A DNA stretch of 25,394 nt from a virus, in IMG/VR virus record IMGVR_UViG_3300049217_000014, positions 1 through 25,394 of that record; one strand, 5' to 3'. The notes beneath the pieces were generated by a model. That model searched no databases and was not told the origin of the DNA. It saw only the letters and a list, made by a program, of their open reading frames with translations. Shown piece after piece: positions 4,631 to 20,158 of this stretch. Within the stretch, counting starts at the first letter, position 1; the number at the start of each line of letters is the position of its first letter. Both the position numbers and the translations under genes were made by a program.

Positions 4631-5799
4631 GTCATGCTCATATGGGGTGCGTAGTTGACCGGGATCGCCCGGCGCTTGTTGGCGTTCTGCCGCGTGGTGT
4701 CGACCAACTTGTGCAGCTTCTCGGCGCCCAGGTGGTCGACCACGTCTTTCGGGATCACGAACTCACCCGGCGTTAAGATCGCGGGCTTACGGTCCGTGGT
4801 GCCGGGGATCGCGCCGACCGGCAGCGCACCCCGCGCCGTGACCGGACCACCCGCGAACATGGGCTCGAACGGGAACGCTGCGGGCTGGCGGGGCCGCACC
4901 GCGCCGTGCACCACCGGAAGCCCCGAGTGGGCCAGCGGGATCCGTCCACCTTTCGCAAGCGGCGCTCCACCGACGACACCGCCTTTTTCCATGAACATCG
5001 TGGCCGCGCCAGCGATGGACCCAATGGCCGACATGGTCGAGTTCGACTGCGCCTGCTGCGCGGCCTGGACCGCCATCTGGTCCTGGAACTGGCCCTGCTG
5101 CGCGTTCACGGCGCTGTTATTGGCGCTGATGTCGGTGCCAAGATACTGGTTCGCCGCGCCCAGATTGCTGATGCCCGACGAGTTGGTCTGGTTCAGCGTG
5201 CTTTGGCCGGACTCGGCGGTATTGGCCGCCGTGGCCGCGCCCTGCGTGCCCTGCGCGCCGACCTGGAGACCAAGCTGGTTGGCCTGGTTGACCAACTGCA
5301 TACTGGTGTTCTGGGTGTTCAGCGCCGACTGCGTGCCGGCCGCCGCCGTCTGGCCCGCTGCCTGGACAGACGCCTGGCGATCCAGCGCTGCGCCGTGCAC
5401 GGATGCCGGGTCCACGCCCTCGGATGCCAGCGCCTGCGCAGAGTTTGCGCGGGCTGCTTGGTTGGCGGCGTTCGAGTTGGCGACGGCCATGCCCTGGAGT
5501 TTTTGGACGTTTTCCTGAGAGCCGTAGTTCTGTGCCTGCTGCGCCTGCTGCGCCTGGAGCGGTACGAACGTGTTGCCGTACGTGCTGATGTTCTGACTGG
5601 CCTGTGAGCCGATCTGTCCTGCCATGGAGTTGGCAGTATTGGTCACGTTGGTCAGGTTGGCCTGCGCGTTCTTGTTGTATGCGTTGGCGGTGTTCATCAC
5701 CTGGGACGCGTCAGAAGTCGCAGTCGCGGCAGTCTGGTTGGCGTTCGCGGTGTTGGCGCTCAGATCTGGTGCATTGGGAATACTTGCGCCGCCGGACAT
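4627..5799 (-). CDS. Presumed internal virion (ejection) protein with tape-measure-like C-terminus, 390 aa
   Basis: The ATG at 5799, two bases after the preceding stop with an AGAGG ribosome site, is preferred over one 33 bases upstream. Residues 1-260 are an Ala/Asn/Gln/Thr-rich low-complexity helix region (NLTNVTNTANSMAGQIGSQA; LQAQQAQQAQNYGSQENVQK) such as phage ejection proteins show. A hydrophobic stretch SAIGSIAGAATMFM follows, then KGGVV, KGGRIP and FAGGPV. The C-terminus contains RKPAILTPGEFVIPKDVVDH (337-356), a text otherwise typical of tape-measure proteins. ATGA overlap with the next gene. Ejection of internal proteins into the envelope is an inference from composition and position. 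Confidence 0.65.
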   Translation of the reverse strand: MSGGASIPNAPDLSANTANANQTAATATSDASQVMNTANAYNKNAQANLTNVTNTANSMAGQIGSQASQNISTYGNTFVPLQAQQAQQAQNYGSQENVQKLQGMAVANSNAANQAARANSAQALASEGVDPASVHGAALDRQASVQAAGQTAAAGTQSALNTQNTSMQLVNQANQLGLQVGAQGTQGAATAANTAESGQSTLNQTNSSGISNLGAANQYLGTDISANNSAVNAQQGQFQDQMAVQAAQQAQSNSTMSAIGSIAGAATMFMEKGGVVGGAPLAKGGRIPLAHSGLPVVHGAVRPRQPAAFPFEPMFAGGPVTARGALPVGAIPGTTDRKPAILTPGEFVIPKDVVDHLGAEKLHKLVDTTRQNANKRRAIPVNYAPHMSMT

Positions 5800-5801
5800 G
5801 T

Positions 5802-6209
5802 CTACCTCTGCCCCAGCTTCAGCCAGCGGCAATCATTCCTGTACATGACGCCAAAGCGTAGATGCCCCGGCACTTCCCCGAACAATTTGAACCCGAGACG
5901 GTCCGCCATGTTCAAAGACTTGAAGTTCTGCACTTGGATTATGGCAAGAAGATACTGATAATTCCACTGCTGGAACGGGGTATGGAAAGCCCGCAGGAGT
6001 AATTCACGGTTGATCCCCGAGGGTTTGTCGACGCAAAGGTGCAGTTGGCACCCTCCCGGCTGGAAGCTGTCGTACCCGAAAGCGGCCACGATCTCGCCCC
6101 GGACCTCGCGGGCGATCCCGTGAAAATCCCGCATGATCGGCAGCCCCGAACGCTCGTGCATCCAGGTCTGAATGCGCTTGCCTTCGTTGATCAACCGGTC
6201 TACTTGCAT
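5802..6209 (-). CDS. GNAT-like acetyltransferase-fold protein, 135 aa
   Basis: The order of elements fits the GNAT fold: strands GEIVAAFGYDSF and GCQLHLCVDKPSG (38-65), helix RELLLRAFHTPFQQWNYQYL (68-87), strand LAIIQVQNFKSLNMADRLGF (88-107) with the N-x-x-S-x-x-x-A-x-x-L-G-F signature, and a last strand GVMYRNDCRWL (120-130). Phages commonly carry such a protein near tail genes. The usual acetyl-CoA loop (Q/R-x-x-G-x-G/A) is not evident where SGINREL stands, so activity is doubtful. The start overlaps the i-spanin end by ten bases with AGCAGGG before it. Targets unknown. Confidence 0.7.
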   Translation of the reverse strand: MQVDRLINEGKRIQTWMHERSGLPIMRDFHGIAREVRGEIVAAFGYDSFQPGGCQLHLCVDKPSGINRELLLRAFHTPFQQWNYQYLLAIIQVQNFKSLNMADRLGFKLFGEVPGHLRFGVMYRNDCRWLKLGQR

Positions 6210-6700
6210 ATACCCTGCTGCTTGCAGTTGGCGTAATAAGCCCGCCAGTAGGCTATCTCGGCGTCTGCGCGGGCGAGGAGGGCTTCGGTATCGGGAGCGA
6301 TATCCACCCCTTGAGTTCCGCTTCCGTCAGCCACTGCTGCGAGTACGGGGGCCGGTCCGCCAGTGCCTCCGGACTTGGCGCCACCATTTGCGGGCAATGG
6401 ATGTCCGGCCGGTCGGGCTGGTGGTGGGCACACCCGGACAACGATAGGGCCAGCAACGACAGGAGCGGTAAGAGCCGAGTGTAGAGTTGCCCCAGAAAGC
6501 TGGTTGAGTTGGTTCGCACGGTCTTCGACCTCTTGCTTGTGAATCTCTTGGGCCGCCGCGAGCTTCGCCTCGGCCATCTGTTCCTTGTGGACGCCGATCT
6601 GTTCCAGGTGATGCACAGTGTATACGCCGCCGCACAAAAGCAGAAACGCAAGCCCGGCCCAAATGTAGACCTCGTATGGTGCCAGGAGTGTCTTGATCAT
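6200..6700 (-). CDS. Rz: i-spanin (Rz-like), 166 aa
   Basis: Inner-membrane component of the spanin complex that fuses inner and outer membranes after peptidoglycan is cut. Residues 12-30 are one N-terminal membrane anchor (YIWAGLAFLLLCGGVYTVHH) followed by a coiled-coil stretch (VHKEQMAEAKLAAAQEIHKQ, to about residue 66). The C-terminal half is Pro/Gly/Ala-rich and is constrained by a second gene nested in another frame. The last part (ADAEIAYWRAYYANCKQQG) is helical again. ATGA overlap with the endolysin. The gene also overlaps the next start by ten bases. Confidence 0.85.
   Translation of the reverse strand: MIKTLLAPYEVYIWAGLAFLLLCGGVYTVHHLEQIGVHKEQMAEAKLAAAQEIHKQEVEDRANQLNQLSGATLHSALTAPVVAGPIVVRVCPPPARPAGHPLPANGGAKSGGTGGPAPVLAAVADGSGTQGVDIAPDTEALLARADAEIAYWRAYYANCKQQGICK
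6253..6519 (-). CDS. Rz1: o-spanin (Rz1-like lipoprotein) nested inside Rz, 88 aa, GTG start
   Basis: Fully embedded in the i-spanin gene in another frame. The GTG at 6519 has an AGAGGT ribosome site nine bases upstream and begins a lipoprotein signal: RTNSTSFLGQLYTRLLPLLS then LLALSLSGC with lipobox Cys at residue 30. The mature part is Pro-rich (CAHHQPDRPDIHCPQ; PIPKPSSPAQTPR), as is usual for outer-membrane spanins. A longer frame from an upstream ATG has a basic, Ser-rich N-terminus that would spoil the signal peptide, so I reject it. Partner of the overlapping Rz; together they argue for a Gram-negative host. Confidence 0.85.
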   Translation of the reverse strand: MRTNSTSFLGQLYTRLLPLLSLLALSLSGCAHHQPDRPDIHCPQMVAPSPEALADRPPYSQQWLTEAELKGWISLPIPKPSSPAQTPR

Positions 6701-7393: not shown

Positions 7394-9292
7394 TTACACC
7401 GTCTGTAGTTCCTTGCCAGTCTCGGCCATTGCGAAGCTGTAAACGGGAACGTTCCCGATCAATTGCACGCGCCAGCCGTCTGCTTTGATTCCCGCCGGTA
7501 GTCGGTAGGTCCGTTCGTCCGTCGCTGTCCATACATACACCGGACTCCAAACTTGGGTGGTCGGCGTCCTAGCATATATCGTCACTTGCACTGCGCCAAC
7601 CACGTTTTCCAGGCCGCCAAGCGGAAATAACGGCGATCCCGCAATCGGGCTCTTGATTTGCGGCAGGATGGCCCCGGCGCCCGTTATTGCGCCGCTCACA
7701 CCGGGGAAAGCCGGTAGCTTGCGAACGCCATTGATCGGCGCAAGATTGATGCAGTTCAGCGGTTTTGCAATGCGCTGCGTGTTGAACGACGTGTAGTCGC
7801 CCAACAGCGACGCAGGTATTTGATATCCGCCACCGTCGAACTTGATCTTCATCGCGCCGAAATTCACGGGCTTCGGGAGATCGAAATCCTTGCTTATGAA
7901 GGTGTACTCGTACGGCGTGGACTCCGGCGGATCCCACAGACGCACTTGTCCTGATTGCACGAGATACACGTCACCGGAATACTCGTCGATCTGGATCGCA
8001 GTAACGTTAGAGAAACGATCCAGCGTAGTGAGAGGCGCGAGTGATTCCGCTGGGCTAAAAATAAACCCCGACGCGGTCGTGTCGAATGCGATGTACTGCA
8101 AGCCGTACGGCACTGCTTGCACAGTCGTGGGTGAAAAATAATCCTGCCATTCTTCTCGTGTGAACAGCGGCTGAGTCGCAAGCTGAGTCGCCCCAGCAGT
8201 TGCGACAATGATGCCTTGAGGGCTCGCATAGTAGACCCCGCTCAATGTGGTTGCGATGCTGCGACGAGACACGCAGGGATCAATCGAGTCGATCTTCTGC
8301 AATGTCACGGCCTGCGGCGACATACCTTCCGCGTAGTACGGGTTCGACGTGGTCGTCACGATGATGATGTTGTTGTAGATCGCGACGCCTGTGATCTCGG
8401 TCTTGCAGGTCTGGATGTTCTCCACGGGCCATGCGTGCGGATGGTACGGGTCGCTCATGTAGAGGTCGCGGCCAGAAAACCCGATCAAGAACCCGCCGGG
8501 GTGTGATACCAAACCCGTGAGCGTCGCCGGCGGTACGTCCCACGTGAGCGACGCACACACGAAGTTCAGCGCGACGATGTCGTCCAGGTTGTTGTCTGTG
8601 TACGAAGTCGTGCCAAGAGAGATCTGCGCCACGAAGAAATACTGCGGCGACGTGCTGGTTGAGTCAGCCACCGTGCGGTAGATATTGATCTTGGTCACGT
8701 TGTAGTTCGCGGGCGTGCCGGGCGGCGCCGTGTCGAACCCGTTCAGGGTCCACGTGCCGGCCGTGCCTGTCGCGACGGTCGCGGGGCTGGGGGCAGATTC
8801 TTCGCCGTAAGCACTCACGAATGTATAGATATACGATCTGGACAAGTCCGTACCGGTAGGCGGAGTCACCGTCAGCGCGCCGACGGGAGCCGGGACGCCG
8901 AGCAGGAACGACGGGCTGGATGCTTGAATCCTGGCGCGTGTGTTGTACTGCGGCGCTCCGCCGAGCCGCGTCGAATCGCTGGTCCAGTAGTACCGCTCGA
9001 ACGAGTCTTCGAGAACGGGCGTTCGCACGAAGTCCACGTTGGGGTCCGTGAAGCCCACCCAGAAGTCTGAGCTACCCAGAGGCAGCGGCGCACCGACCGT
9101 CGCGGGCAAACGCCACGCGCGGGAGATCGCCGCGTTCGCGAAGTCGTGAAGCAGTTGCGTCTCACGCAGGCCCCGCAGTTCTCCGGATAGCAACTTGCAG
9201 TTCGCCGCCGTCGCGGCTCCGTTGTACGGCAGCAATCGTGCGGACATGCGTGGCGCGATGCCGGCGAAGTTGTCGATCTTGATTGCGGTCAT
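7394..9292 (-). CDS. Tail nozzle-like beta-propeller virion protein, 632 aa
   Basis: The N-terminus reads IKIDNFAGIAPRMSARLLPY then NGAATAANCKLLSGELRGLR (about residues 5-44), the characteristic opening of large podovirus tail proteins that wrap the tail channel. Then come long beta-rich stretches with blade-like repeats (YIYTFVSAYGEESAPSPATV, HPGGFLIGFSGRDLYMSDPY, GVAIYNNIIIVTTTSNPYYA, GVYYASPQGIIVATAGATQL) and a C-terminal region (PAGIKADGWRVQLIGNVPVY) that closes with SFAMAETGKELQ. Blade-like repeats and length suggest a beta-propeller, as in P22 gp10-type proteins. It lies after the fibers and before the lysis genes. The specific nozzle role is an inference. Confidence 0.65.
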   Translation of the reverse strand: MTAIKIDNFAGIAPRMSARLLPYNGAATAANCKLLSGELRGLRETQLLHDFANAAISRAWRLPATVGAPLPLGSSDFWVGFTDPNVDFVRTPVLEDSFERYYWTSDSTRLGGAPQYNTRARIQASSPSFLLGVPAPVGALTVTPPTGTDLSRSYIYTFVSAYGEESAPSPATVATGTAGTWTLNGFDTAPPGTPANYNVTKINIYRTVADSTSTSPQYFFVAQISLGTTSYTDNNLDDIVALNFVCASLTWDVPPATLTGLVSHPGGFLIGFSGRDLYMSDPYHPHAWPVENIQTCKTEITGVAIYNNIIIVTTTSNPYYAEGMSPQAVTLQKIDSIDPCVSRRSIATTLSGVYYASPQGIIVATAGATQLATQPLFTREEWQDYFSPTTVQAVPYGLQYIAFDTTASGFIFSPAESLAPLTTLDRFSNVTAIQIDEYSGDVYLVQSGQVRLWDPPESTPYEYTFISKDFDLPKPVNFGAMKIKFDGGGYQIPASLLGDYTSFNTQRIAKPLNCINLAPINGVRKLPAFPGVSGAITGAGAILPQIKSPIAGSPLFPLGGLENVVGAVQVTIYARTPTTQVWSPVYVWTATDERTYRLPAGIKADGWRVQLIGNVPVYSFAMAETGKELQTV

Positions 9293-9293
9293 G

Positions 9294-9378
9294 TCATACG
9301 CCCCATTTAGCGTGTAAGTAGGCTTCCACGCTTTGAATATCTGTCAAGTCCCATAAGCCGAGTCGAGTAAAAGTGTGT
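9294..9378 (-). pseudogene. Scar encoding the C-terminus of a different lectin-type domain
   Basis: This gap between the fiber stop and the next gene is open in one frame that is not the fiber frame. It reads TRLGLWDLTDIQSVEAYLHA then KWGV and a stop, a text typical of the last helix of LamG/concanavalin-type domains (pattern LGLW, V-E-x-Y-L-x-x-K-W-G). No ATG opens this frame here. The fiber upstream already has a complete, different lectin ending, so this is best read as the leftover 3' end of a replaced fiber gene. It also carries the GGGGCG ribosome site of the next gene, which may be why it was kept. Confidence 0.55.
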
Positions 9379-10458
9379 TCATGCTGCCCGCCTGAAATAA
9401 TCGCAAAATCCGCCCGCGTCCCCCGTCGTGCCGGTACTTGCCGGCGCTCCGATGCCAACGTGAGTAATGGCGCCAAGATAGCCCGCGACGTTTTCGGTGT
9501 TATATTCGGTGTACCAAAGACCGGTATAGGAGAAACCCGTGTATAGGTTCGTGCCGTCGTATCGAAACCGTAAGTAAATCCATTGGTTCGCGTAGACGGC
9601 CGTCGAGCCTAAATTGGTGTTATAGGCGTATTGCCCGTTAGCCGGGTTGATCGTTTCACGCTGCGTGTAGAGGGTGTTAGGCGAATAGACAAACGCGGAA
9701 AGGGCATTGTTATTGGCCGAATTATATGCCGTCAGAACCACGCCGTAATTATTGCCCGTGACGGCCGGAAATACCTTGACGACGTACGCCCACGATGAAC
9801 CCGACGCGACGGGCTGCATGGCAAAAAATCCGGGGGCACCCGCAGACGCAACAATCGAAACGCTGCCGGCCGCTTGCGGGGACGCGCAATTGACGCTAAT
9901 GATTGTCCACGGCGTCGCGCCGGAATATCGCGCGCCCGTCGTGTCTAGTGAAGTGCCGTATTCAAATTCATCATTCGGTCCAAGCCCGACACCGGTAGGC
10001 ACGGCAGCGTGCGTGTCGGCCGTGACGTTGAACGGTTCCGACGAGCCGCCCCCGCCCGAACCGTTCGCGGCGGCCGTCAAGCGCCCTTCCGCGTCTACCG
10101 TGATATTCGCCGACGTGTAGCTGCCGGCCGCCACGCCGGTAGCCGGCAGGTTCACGTTAATCGTGCCGCTCGTGGTCACGGGGTTCGTGCCGCCGAGCGT
10201 CAGCGTAGTCGACGCAAGCCCGACGCTTGTGACGGACCCGCCGCCGCCCCCGCCGCCGGATACTTTGCTGCCAGGCGAGATCGTGCCACCGATGTACTTG
10301 ACGAGGCCGGCGCTGATCAACTCGCCGAGGGTGACATAACTGTCATTGGGAGCCCCACGAATCCGCTGCGCCGTCTCCGTGGCTTCCTTCAACTGTGTGA
10401 GGACAACCTGATGGTTGGCGATGTCTGGGGTCGGGGCTCGAATAGCAGTAACGCCCAC
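9379..10458 (-). CDS. Lectin-tipped tail fiber, 359 aa, GTG start
   Basis: The GTG at 10458 has a GAGGGTAGG ribosome site and no better ATG. Residues 1-60 form a helical attachment region (VVLTQLKEATETAQRIRG). Two fiber repeats follow: SVTSVGLASTTLTLGGTNPV (75-94) and SYTSANITVDAEGRLTAA (113-130), a widespread environmental-phage fiber motif. Poly-Gly linkers occur at 68-74 and 135-138. From about 147 the protein is a lectin-like beta-sandwich (DEFEYGTSLDTTGARYSG; NQWIYLRFRYDGTNLYTGFS) ending HVGIGAP then GGFCDYFRRAA, the usual end of this domain type. It should be the main receptor-binding candidate. The remnant downstream suggests the tip gene has been exchanged. Confidence 0.8.
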   Translation of the reverse strand: MGVTAIRAPTPDIANHQVVLTQLKEATETAQRIRGAPNDSYVTLGELISAGLVKYIGGTISPGSKVSGGGGGGGSVTSVGLASTTLTLGGTNPVTTSGTINVNLPATGVAAGSYTSANITVDAEGRLTAAANGSGGGGSSEPFNVTADTHAAVPTGVGLGPNDEFEYGTSLDTTGARYSGATPWTIISVNCASPQAAGSVSIVASAGAPGFFAMQPVASGSSWAYVVKVFPAVTGNNYGVVLTAYNSANNNALSAFVYSPNTLYTQRETINPANGQYAYNTNLGSTAVYANQWIYLRFRYDGTNLYTGFSYTGLWYTEYNTENVAGYLGAITHVGIGAPASTGTTGDAGGFCDYFRRAA

Positions 10459-17462: not shown

Positions 17463-17512
17463 ATCTCGTACTCACCAGGGTGTGGATTGAACATATCGTT
17501 GATATTACCCAT
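17459..17512 (-). CDS. Possible 17-residue microprotein
   Basis: In the 42-base gap between the nuclease and the next gene an ATG at 17512, overlapping the nuclease stop region, opens a frame reading MGNINDMFNPHPGEYEI. It stops with TGA at 17459-17461 in an ATGA overlap with the next gene. That junction style is used throughout this operon, which favours translation, but no clear ribosome site precedes the ATG and the frame is short enough to be chance. No function suggested. Confidence 0.35.
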   Translation of the reverse strand: MGNINDMFNPHPGEYEI

Positions 17513-17816
17513 GCGATTCTAGGTACGCAAGGGCGTTTCGGACGCCTGCGGCATTGTCACCAAGCTTTCCTATCCCGGTGTTGCAATTCGAACATAGCCA
17601 CCCCCGAAACCTGCCGGTGGCGTGATCGTGGTCAAGATGCAATCTTGCCCCTCGACCGTTCGGAGGCCCTCCGCAGCACTCACACGTTGCAGGACACTCG
17701 CGAGTTGGGACGGGGTATCCAAGCCAGTCGCGCATATACGCCTGCAACCTTTCCTTGTTGCGGATTCCCCAAGCGCGCCTGTAAGCCTTTGCTTCTTCGT
17801 AGCATTTTCGAGGCAT
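17505..17816 (-). CDS. Endonuclease VII-family (HNH) nuclease, 103 aa
   Basis: The sequence has the full zinc/HNH layout of the recombination endonuclease VII family: a CxxC pair (TCECCGG), then LHLDHDHATGRFRGWLCSNC with the catalytic D-H-D-H and second CxxC, then NTGIGKLGDN. The N-terminal part (YEEAKAYRRAWGIRNKERLQ) is a basic helix typical of these small nucleases. Family members cleave branched DNA or act as free-standing homing nucleases. The ATG at 17816 overlaps the portal stop (TGATG); a TTG one codon earlier is also possible. Location inside the packaging/head operon suggests either resolution of branched DNA for packaging or an inserted selfish gene. Confidence 0.88.
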   Translation of the reverse strand: MPRKCYEEAKAYRRAWGIRNKERLQAYMRDWLGYPVPTRECPATCECCGGPPNGRGARLHLDHDHATGRFRGWLCSNCNTGIGKLGDNAAGVRNALAYLESHG

Positions 17817-20158
17817 CAACCATGCCCCACGTTGCTCGATACGGTATTAAGCGGCGTCACTTGAGGCGCGGGAGTTAACCCCTGCACTCCACCAGCGCCC
17901 GGCGCGGCGGCACTGTTTGGATGCGGCGTGTTGTCGCCCGTAGGGTTCGGTCCGCCGCCGGCGCCGGGCGGCAGTCCCGCAAGCGGGTTCAGTGCTGCAT
18001 TTGGTATCTGGCCCGCCAGGTTCACGTTCACGTGCGGGGGCGGAGGCGCGGGGGGCGCGGGCGGAGGCGGCGGCGTGTAGATGCCGGGCGGAGGCGCACC
18101 GGGCATGTCGCCGGGTTGCTTGATCTTGATCTCCATGCCGGTGTTGTCCGCAACCTTTTGAAGTATTCGCGCAAGCATGTCCGGCCCAATAAGCGTGGCG
18201 TAATTTGGATTGTTGATGATCTGGAGAAATTCCATCTGGCGAGTGAGATCCTGCTCCTGCTTCGCAGCCTGGCGGACGCCGTCGACCACAATGGTCTCGT
18301 CGCCACGGAGCATACCGGTGCTGTCAGTAAGCATGATGAAGTCGTACAGCATTTGAAGCAGCGGTTCGAAGATGTCGTTGTCGATGTTGTCGGCAACGTT
18401 CTGGAGTGTCTTGTTCGCGTTGTTGATCAGCATCGACAAGCCCGACGCCGTGCGGCCGGCTCCGGAGTTCGCGCCGCCGCCGGTCAGGTACCGGGGTATA
18501 GTCGAAACGTCGTCGAGCATCACGCTGAACTTGTCGATGATCGCCATGAGTTCTTGCGCGTTCGAATTTGGCTGGAAAAAAGACACCGGAGTACGGTTTG
18601 GGTTCGCCGGATCGCCGGTGTACTTCCAGATTTTCCACGGGCTGAGCGATGCGTCCTGCGTCGGGCTGATCAACTCCTCGTCGATCACAGCTTGCGGACC
18701 AGACGAGATGCTGATGTTGTTGACGAGCGCACGCAAGGTCGCGTTGATCACATCCGTTAGGTCGTTCGCGAGCGCTGGAATGCCGTTGCCATACAGCGTG
18801 CCAGGCATCTTGTCGAAGCTCGTCACGTAGTACGGCACACGGAGGCGCGGCGACGGGTTCATCATCACCTTGAAGATACGCTTGTCCACCATCCAGGCCG
18901 TAATGAAATACGGCTTGTAGGGATCGTTCACGCCCGGCACGTTGTACTCCATGAGGTACCGTCCGAGAACGTGGCCGTGGAACTCGATGGCGTTAATGAA
19001 GTTGTCATCAAGCACGTTGTTACGGCCTTCCATCTGCGCGCGTTCATAGTCGAAGATCTGGATCCACTCTTTGAACCCGCGACCCTCGTATGCCTGGATG
19101 ATCGCGCGGATGTCTTCCTCGCGGTAGCCGGGCAAGCCGATCAGGTTGTACAGGTCCATGACGGACATGCGCTGCCGCTCGAACACTTCGGTGTTCTCGA
19201 TCTGCGTCGCGCCGGGCGAGAACCAAACGTCCCACGGAGATACGCGGTACCAGAAGAATCGGGCCTCCTCGTGCGCGTGCATTTTCTTTTTCTTGTCCCA
19301 CTTGAGCGCCGTCGTGCGGCGGGTCACGGGGCCTTTGATCACCGCGTATTTGTAGACCGGCAGGTCGCACAGGAAGTCCGACAGCGCGTGGTAAAACTCC
19401 CCTTTTTCAAGGATCTCGTCGACCTTTCGCTGCGCGTCTTTGACTTCTTCTTCAGCTTTTTGGCGCTCCGCGAGTTTGACCGCTTCGTAGAGATTCTCCA
19501 GGCGCTCGCGAATTTGTTCCTGAGGAACACGCTGGCCCTGCTCGTTCGCCGACAGCACTTCCTGATGCACCAGCGTGGCTATGTGCGTGTCGATCCCGTC
19601 GGGAATCTCCGGATCCGCGCTGGGCGTGAGCGTCCATGGGCGGTCCGAGTTCATGTAGACGTTGCGCAGAAGGGCCGTGGCACCACGGCATTTCATGGAC
19701 ATGAGCCGCGAATACACCGCGCTGCCCCCGAAGCTCTCGATCTCTTGAAGCTTCCCGGGGTCATACTGGCCGTTGTAGCTCCGCATGTCCCGAATCAACT
19801 CGTCGTCCACTGAGATGACTCGGCGGTGCCGGACGGCCTTCTCGAAGCGCTGGCGGATATAGTTCGCCAGGTCGGTGGCGATCTCCGGAGAGACCTTGGA
19901 CAAGTCGATGGAACGCTTCTCGGCGGCGTCGAGTTCGTCGTTGCCGATGACCCGGAGCAGGCCACGCCCCTGGTGCTTCATTGGCTCCAGGGTTTTGTCA
20001 GGTTTCTTGGAGTTCTTGGCGCCGGCACCATCGTACACGCCGGGGATGGGCGACGCGGCGCGGGCGGAGGTACCCAGATTGGCATTGGCGTAGGGCTGCG
20101 GGGGATCCCCGCCCACCCCAACCCCGGGTGTACTCATGCCAGCAGGTATCGCGCCCAT
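17816..20158 (-). CDS. Portal protein, P22-size podovirus type, 780 aa
   Basis: Twelve copies of the portal should form the ring at the capsid vertex through which DNA enters and leaves. Landmarks: an N-terminal Gly/Pro arm (1-60); wing/stem region with SFGGSAVYSRLMSMKCRGAT (142-161); a long charged helix (213-253); YRVSPWDVWFSP (304-315); MPGTLYGNGIPALANDLTDV (451-470); and the podophage portal signature GAGRTASGLSMLINNANK (566-583). A crown/barrel-type helix follows, then an extreme Pro-rich tail (684-710) and a disordered Gly/Pro C-terminus. Length is close to P22 gp1 (725 aa). Strong GAGGAAA ribosome site at the ATG. The stop overlaps the next ATG as TGATG. Confidence 0.9.
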   Translation of the reverse strand: MGAIPAGMSTPGVGVGGDPPQPYANANLGTSARAASPIPGVYDGAGAKNSKKPDKTLEPMKHQGRGLLRVIGNDELDAAEKRSIDLSKVSPEIATDLANYIRQRFEKAVRHRRVISVDDELIRDMRSYNGQYDPGKLQEIESFGGSAVYSRLMSMKCRGATALLRNVYMNSDRPWTLTPSADPEIPDGIDTHIATLVHQEVLSANEQGQRVPQEQIRERLENLYEAVKLAERQKAEEEVKDAQRKVDEILEKGEFYHALSDFLCDLPVYKYAVIKGPVTRRTTALKWDKKKKMHAHEEARFFWYRVSPWDVWFSPGATQIENTEVFERQRMSVMDLYNLIGLPGYREEDIRAIIQAYEGRGFKEWIQIFDYERAQMEGRNNVLDDNFINAIEFHGHVLGRYLMEYNVPGVNDPYKPYFITAWMVDKRIFKVMMNPSPRLRVPYYVTSFDKMPGTLYGNGIPALANDLTDVINATLRALVNNISISSGPQAVIDEELISPTQDASLSPWKIWKYTGDPANPNRTPVSFFQPNSNAQELMAIIDKFSVMLDDVSTIPRYLTGGGANSGAGRTASGLSMLINNANKTLQNVADNIDNDIFEPLLQMLYDFIMLTDSTGMLRGDETIVVDGVRQAAKQEQDLTRQMEFLQIINNPNYATLIGPDMLARILQKVADNTGMEIKIKQPGDMPGAPPPGIYTPPPPPAPPAPPPPHVNVNLAGQIPNAALNPLAGLPPGAGGGPNPTGDNTPHPNSAAAPGAGGVQGLTPAPQVTPLNTVSSNVGHG

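Follow-up and report, generated by a model that had tools for sequence, protein, structure and literature searches.

The 86 nt that separate a fiber gene from the nozzle gene behind it in a viral genome raise the question of what they once encoded and how they came to lie there. Tip swapping is a main route to a new host range and is usually inferred from trees. The window, that is, the whole stretch of DNA analysed, is a 25,394-nt virus record in which the head and tail genes (terminase, portal/adaptor, major head protein, fiber-type genes and nozzle) are located on the minus strand.

Gene order around the fiber-nozzle gap

The fiber CDS (10458..9379, minus strand) has a GTG start and ends in DYFRRAA and a stop codon. 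Its N-terminal anchor (AIRAPTPDIANHQVVLTQLKE..., 10241..10458, minus strand, with an approximate boundary) is common to relatives of the same lineage and was 46-73% identical to those of L002, L074 (L001) and L072 over at most 81 aa. The nozzle / internal virion protein gene (7394..9292, minus strand; phrog_511, E 3.8e-127) constitutes the fixed right-hand flank, with 67-81% identity in L001-L006. Between the two genes, the gap occupies 9293-9378 on the minus strand; an earlier, sequence-only reading of this DNA had its length of 86 bases right and its coordinates, 9294-9378, one base short. The G+C content is 0.465 in the gap against 0.608 in the window.

Relatives of the lineage were gathered by searching with the nozzle and with the fiber anchor. 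Among known phages the DNA of the region was without match except for one 92-nt hit, and the fiber and its tip were without protein match. No relative of the tip or the nozzle was found in bacterial genomes, and the fibers and the gap ORF had no meaningful match in Pfam.

Some further observations concern the gene order. An Endonuclease VII-type HNH gene (window 17505-17819) adjoins the portal/adaptor gene (phrog_2633), and an Acyl-CoA N-acyltransferase-like gene (phrog_4470, window 5802-6209) is found among the virion genes. Inspection of window 6200-6700 revealed a likely spanin pair, a membrane-anchored ORF overlapped in a different frame by a lipoprotein-like one, for which PHROG gave no match. 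In L004 and L005, a short fiber is separated from the nozzle by two extra genes (products of ~300 aa and 62-98 aa).

A lectin-type end in the right half of the gap

The right half of the gap (9294..9341, minus strand; 48 nt, 15 codons) encodes DIQSVEAYLHAKWGV followed by a stop 1 base before the nozzle ATG. The sequence-only reading had noted that this frame differs from that of the complete fiber upstream, as it does, and had recognised the C-terminal end of a LamG domain, which holds for the segment 9341-9294. The C-terminal helix pattern E-I-x-x-(V/I)-E-x-Y-x-x-A-K-W-G is present, and the segment scored 27.8 bits against a profile made from 71 different natural LamG ends. Because no other site of the window scored above -16.1 and none of 5,000 Markov gaps above 2.3, the likeness is not attributed to chance; with L002 removed from the profile, the score was still 21.8. 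A search with a narrow DNA pattern of LamG ends returned nothing, and a second pattern, in which the stop had been set in the wrong frame, nevertheless returned LamG ends.

Intact genes with this C-terminus, for which the earlier reading had advised a search, were found at the same locus in L002, L308 and L313. These relatives share the fiber anchor and nozzle of the window, and their intact fibers end in EIANIEAYILAKWGV, EITNVENYLFAKWGV and EITSVENYLFAKWGV, respectively, each followed by a stop. The shared end, ...EI..(V/I)E.Y..AKWGV and stop, is located at or shortly before the nozzle start (9 nt from stop to ATG in L002 and L308, -1 nt in L313 and 1 nt for the window remnant), and the same lineage-specific end is present in the window. 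In the DNA alignment 9341-9294 is in register with the three ends, 28-33 of the 48 bases being identical, and a scan for KWGV-type ends directly ahead of the nozzle start again returned only these three. Their tips are assigned to the LamG type by the C-terminal pattern; Pfam gave no LamG hit for L002, and the fold model of the three tips was poor (pLDDT 41) and too weak for use.

Phage LamG/concanavalin-like C-termini ending in ...E(G/A)YLA.KWG offer a further comparison. The old tip end fits that pattern, but the window lineage stops at KWGV whereas most other LamG ends run on (KWGLEANLPAGHPYK...). As the KWGV stop is typical of the lineage, the remnant most likely belonged to the recipient itself. 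A lectin body is absent upstream in the same frame, and with only 15 codons left the segment is a remnant and not a working LamG-type tip.

The K-W-G codons of this remnant contain a Shine-Dalgarno-like TGGGGCG (approximately 9295..9306, minus strand), which matches the anti-SD better than anything else ahead of the nozzle ATG (-5.9 kcal/mol) and is similar to the sites of other starts in the window. The corresponding match ahead of the nozzle in L313 reached -8.0 kcal/mol. The old lectin end probably persists as the carrier of the nozzle ribosome-binding site, an explanation offered by the sequence-only reading that the TGGGGCG match makes plausible. Since the site may fall between genes in L002 and L308, we infer rather than observe that it is the reason for retention.

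A probable baseplate-wedge gene start in the left half

The sequence-only reading had extended the lectin end leftwards over LGLWDLT. This part lies outside the LamG register and belongs to something the reading overlooked, for the left half has the sequence with which a phrog_120 baseplate-wedge (gp25-like) gene begins (9342..9382, minus strand; 41 nt). Its DNA is ATG AAC ACA CTT TTA CTC GAC TCG GCT TA/TGG GAC TTG ACA. The fiber TGA overlaps the ATG (ATGA), and reading onward gives MNTLLLDSA and, after a missing base, WDLT. Baseplate-wedge genes of phrog_120 begin M(N/S/K)TLLLDxxxWDL; comparable starts, all phrog_120, are MNTLLLDQASWDL in L199, MKTLLLDRTAWDL in L152 and STLLLDVGTWDLT in L073. 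The start motif M-x-T-L-L-L-D-x3-W-D-L is present in the gap, given the loss of 1 base between D and W, by which the frame closes after 12 codons. An intact phrog_120 ORF of ~116-123 aa is absent.

Against a profile of twelve such gene starts, the gap scored higher than every other site on either strand of the window (27.2 vs 10.1 bits), and 0 of 20,000 Markov gaps reached its score. The wedge-gene comparison was prompted by L073 and is hence post hoc. In L073, a tip of the same family as that of the window lies beside a gene of the same kind as the left remnant: the tip-bearing gene ends in DWFRRIA and a stop, the wedge gene begins at its TAATG, and the neighbouring genes are baseplate hub and wedge genes. 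The wedge start at the fiber stop of the window is located where this gene order predicts it.

The entire gap could instead be the old lectin end, with the wedge likeness of the left half arising by chance. The LamG half is indeed firm, but the left half departs from the LamG register, scores far above any other site of the window as a wedge-gene start and sits exactly at the fiber stop. This layout fits natural gene pairs, as the wedge-gene ATG overlaps the stop of the preceding gene in L199, L140 and L152. Such a one-part origin is therefore considered improbable, and a chance likeness to the wedge gene appears unlikely on sequence comparison.

Two observations concern the wedge genes of other phages. 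The tip-bearing gene of L073 (3158-4867) encodes a 569-aa protein with the tip at its C-terminus, situated between baseplate hub and wedge genes and without match in PHROG; it probably serves as a baseplate spike that bears a binding tip. In Acetobacter phage phiAO1 (L206, 1-1167), a gene annotated as catalase is found beside a baseplate-wedge gene.

The present fiber tip and its mobility

Downstream of the anchor, the fiber consists of a stalk (GSYTSANITV...NGSGGGG) and a putative receptor-binding tip (9379..10240, minus strand), which is probably imported, judging from its likeness to L073 and L071 and from its jelly-roll model. Over 303 columns, the product of 9379..10240 shared 40% identity with the C-terminal part of L073 (E 2e-39). 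An AlphaFold model of the tip is an all-beta jelly-roll (mean pLDDT 78), and its best PDB matches in Foldseek, with modest TM-scores, were GH43 beta-xylosidases, ERGIC-53 and legume lectins, and glucanases. The present tip falls in no Pfam or PHROG family; it is a putative binder of a bacterial surface receptor.

The module has the pattern ...THxxxPTGVGxGPNDEFEYG...D(Y/W/F)FRR-A, and in an alignment of 10 sequences the motifs (DEFE...D(Y/W)FRR) and the C-terminal position were conserved on diverse anchors. In L071, L073, L075, L076, L079, L084 and L085, related tips form the C-termini of proteins that differ widely at the N-terminus, and the family is also found on the anchor family of the window in L072/L316 and L311. 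The DNA of L314, L315 and L316 is ~99% identical through the collar gene and the fiber anchor (aligned stretches, around 4400). L316 diverges at the glycine linker, between GWYAQP and GGG..., and carries the tip family of the window, which by these alignments is a recent tip swap among near-identical phages. As an observation of its own, L311 is of the same lineage, has an FRR-type tip and contains a 160-nt gap before the nozzle (5309-5468). That gap holds an ORF of ~54 aa whose start overlaps the fiber stop (ATGA) and which had no match in known phages.

The sequence-only reading was correct that the fiber already has its own terminus, here assigned to a different tip and common to relatives. 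It had also asked for the exclusion of a frameshift or slippage at the TTTT run (9405-9408): a sequencing error might have broken up a single fiber gene, or the ribosome might slip there from one frame to the other, so that the real protein would end in KWGV. The frames are adjacent and the run is present, but the terminus and its stop recur in relatives with that tip: among nine complete tip ends, including that of the window, seven are D(Y/W/F)FRR, one is DFIRQ and one DWFRQ. A fused protein would gain a terminal helix but no lectin body, and a canonical X_XXY_YYZ slippery site is absent on inspection. We regard such a single gene as extremely unlikely.

The junction and its proposed history

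The two remnants meet around TTGACAGAT (9338..9346, minus strand), the exact point being uncertain by a few nt owing to shared bases; in the alignment, LamG homology is lost left of GATATT. On these comparisons the gap very probably arose as the right-hand junction in a non-homologous swap of tips, and is composed of the start of a donor wedge gene and the lectin end of the recipient. Points against a two-part junction are the shortness of the remnants (48 and 41 nt) and the base that has to be missing between TLLLD and WDL in the wedge remnant. The proposal of the sequence-only reading that a tip was swapped and the old 3′ end kept gains support from the intact LamG fibers of relatives and from the occurrence of versions of the window tip on unrelated fibers and a baseplate gene.

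The evolutionary history of the locus may be depicted as follows: In the ancestor, as suggested by the three intact relatives, the anchor would have been fused to a LamG-type tip ending in the amino acids of the present remnant, with the stop abutting the nozzle gene. An incoming segment would then have brought the stalk and the new jelly-roll tip with its own stop, along with ~13 codons of the donor's next gene, presumably a phrog_120 baseplate-wedge gene starting at the tip stop (ATGA overlap). The segment may have been joined to the old gene near bases common to both sequences, 15 codons ahead of its end, and the old lectin end, now out of frame, would have been retained. The 5′ breakpoint is within the glycine-rich stalk, where its exact position cannot be fixed. 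Both the displaced and the incoming tip may have acted as lectins. The donor was probably a contractile-tailed phage, or one once removed. The actual donor was not seen, since the L073 tip is only ~36% identical to that of the window and the closest one (L071, 60%) is followed by a different gene.

The window is one of the public IMG/VR-type virus records, and the tip and wedge-gene start might have been joined to it in metagenome assembly from another phage of the sample. Both flanks, anchor and nozzle, are of one lineage, however, so that two false joins within ~1 kb would be required; the same anchor family bears this tip type in L311 and L316, and the one-base loss resembles decay. A chimeric origin is accordingly very unlikely, and the tip swap is the reading retained.

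Discussion

It is established that tailspikes and fibers exchange their C-terminal receptor-binding domains while the N-terminal anchors stay conserved (PMC10408124). The window resembles these cases in that the anchor tracks the phage lineage and the tip crosses lineages, and differs in its readable 3′ junction, where pieces of the displaced tip and of the gene that came next in the donor are preserved. The Alteromonas schitovirus A5 and myovirus V22 have host-recognition modules in common although they are morphologically distinct (PMC10579305). Transfer across phages of different tail type is the shared trait, but A5 and V22 share a whole fiber and chaperone module, whereas the window has a tip cassette and a scar. 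Tip swapping itself is thus already known; what is new is the preserved two-part junction and a mobile tip family that has no name.

More generally, tip cassettes with their own stop may move between the baseplate gene of contractile phages and the fibers of podovirus-like and other phages by end-joining at a few shared bases. The last codons of such a cassette would often hold a Shine-Dalgarno sequence and start for the next gene, and scars left by the displaced tip and by donor genes would record the direction of the exchange and the type of donor. We give this general model an even chance of being right. A junction that keeps pieces of the displaced tip and of the donor's neighbouring gene reveals what was lost, what was gained and which kind of virion supplied it, and it suggests that the joining took place where the two sequences had only a very short stretch in common. 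Scars of this kind could be sought systematically.
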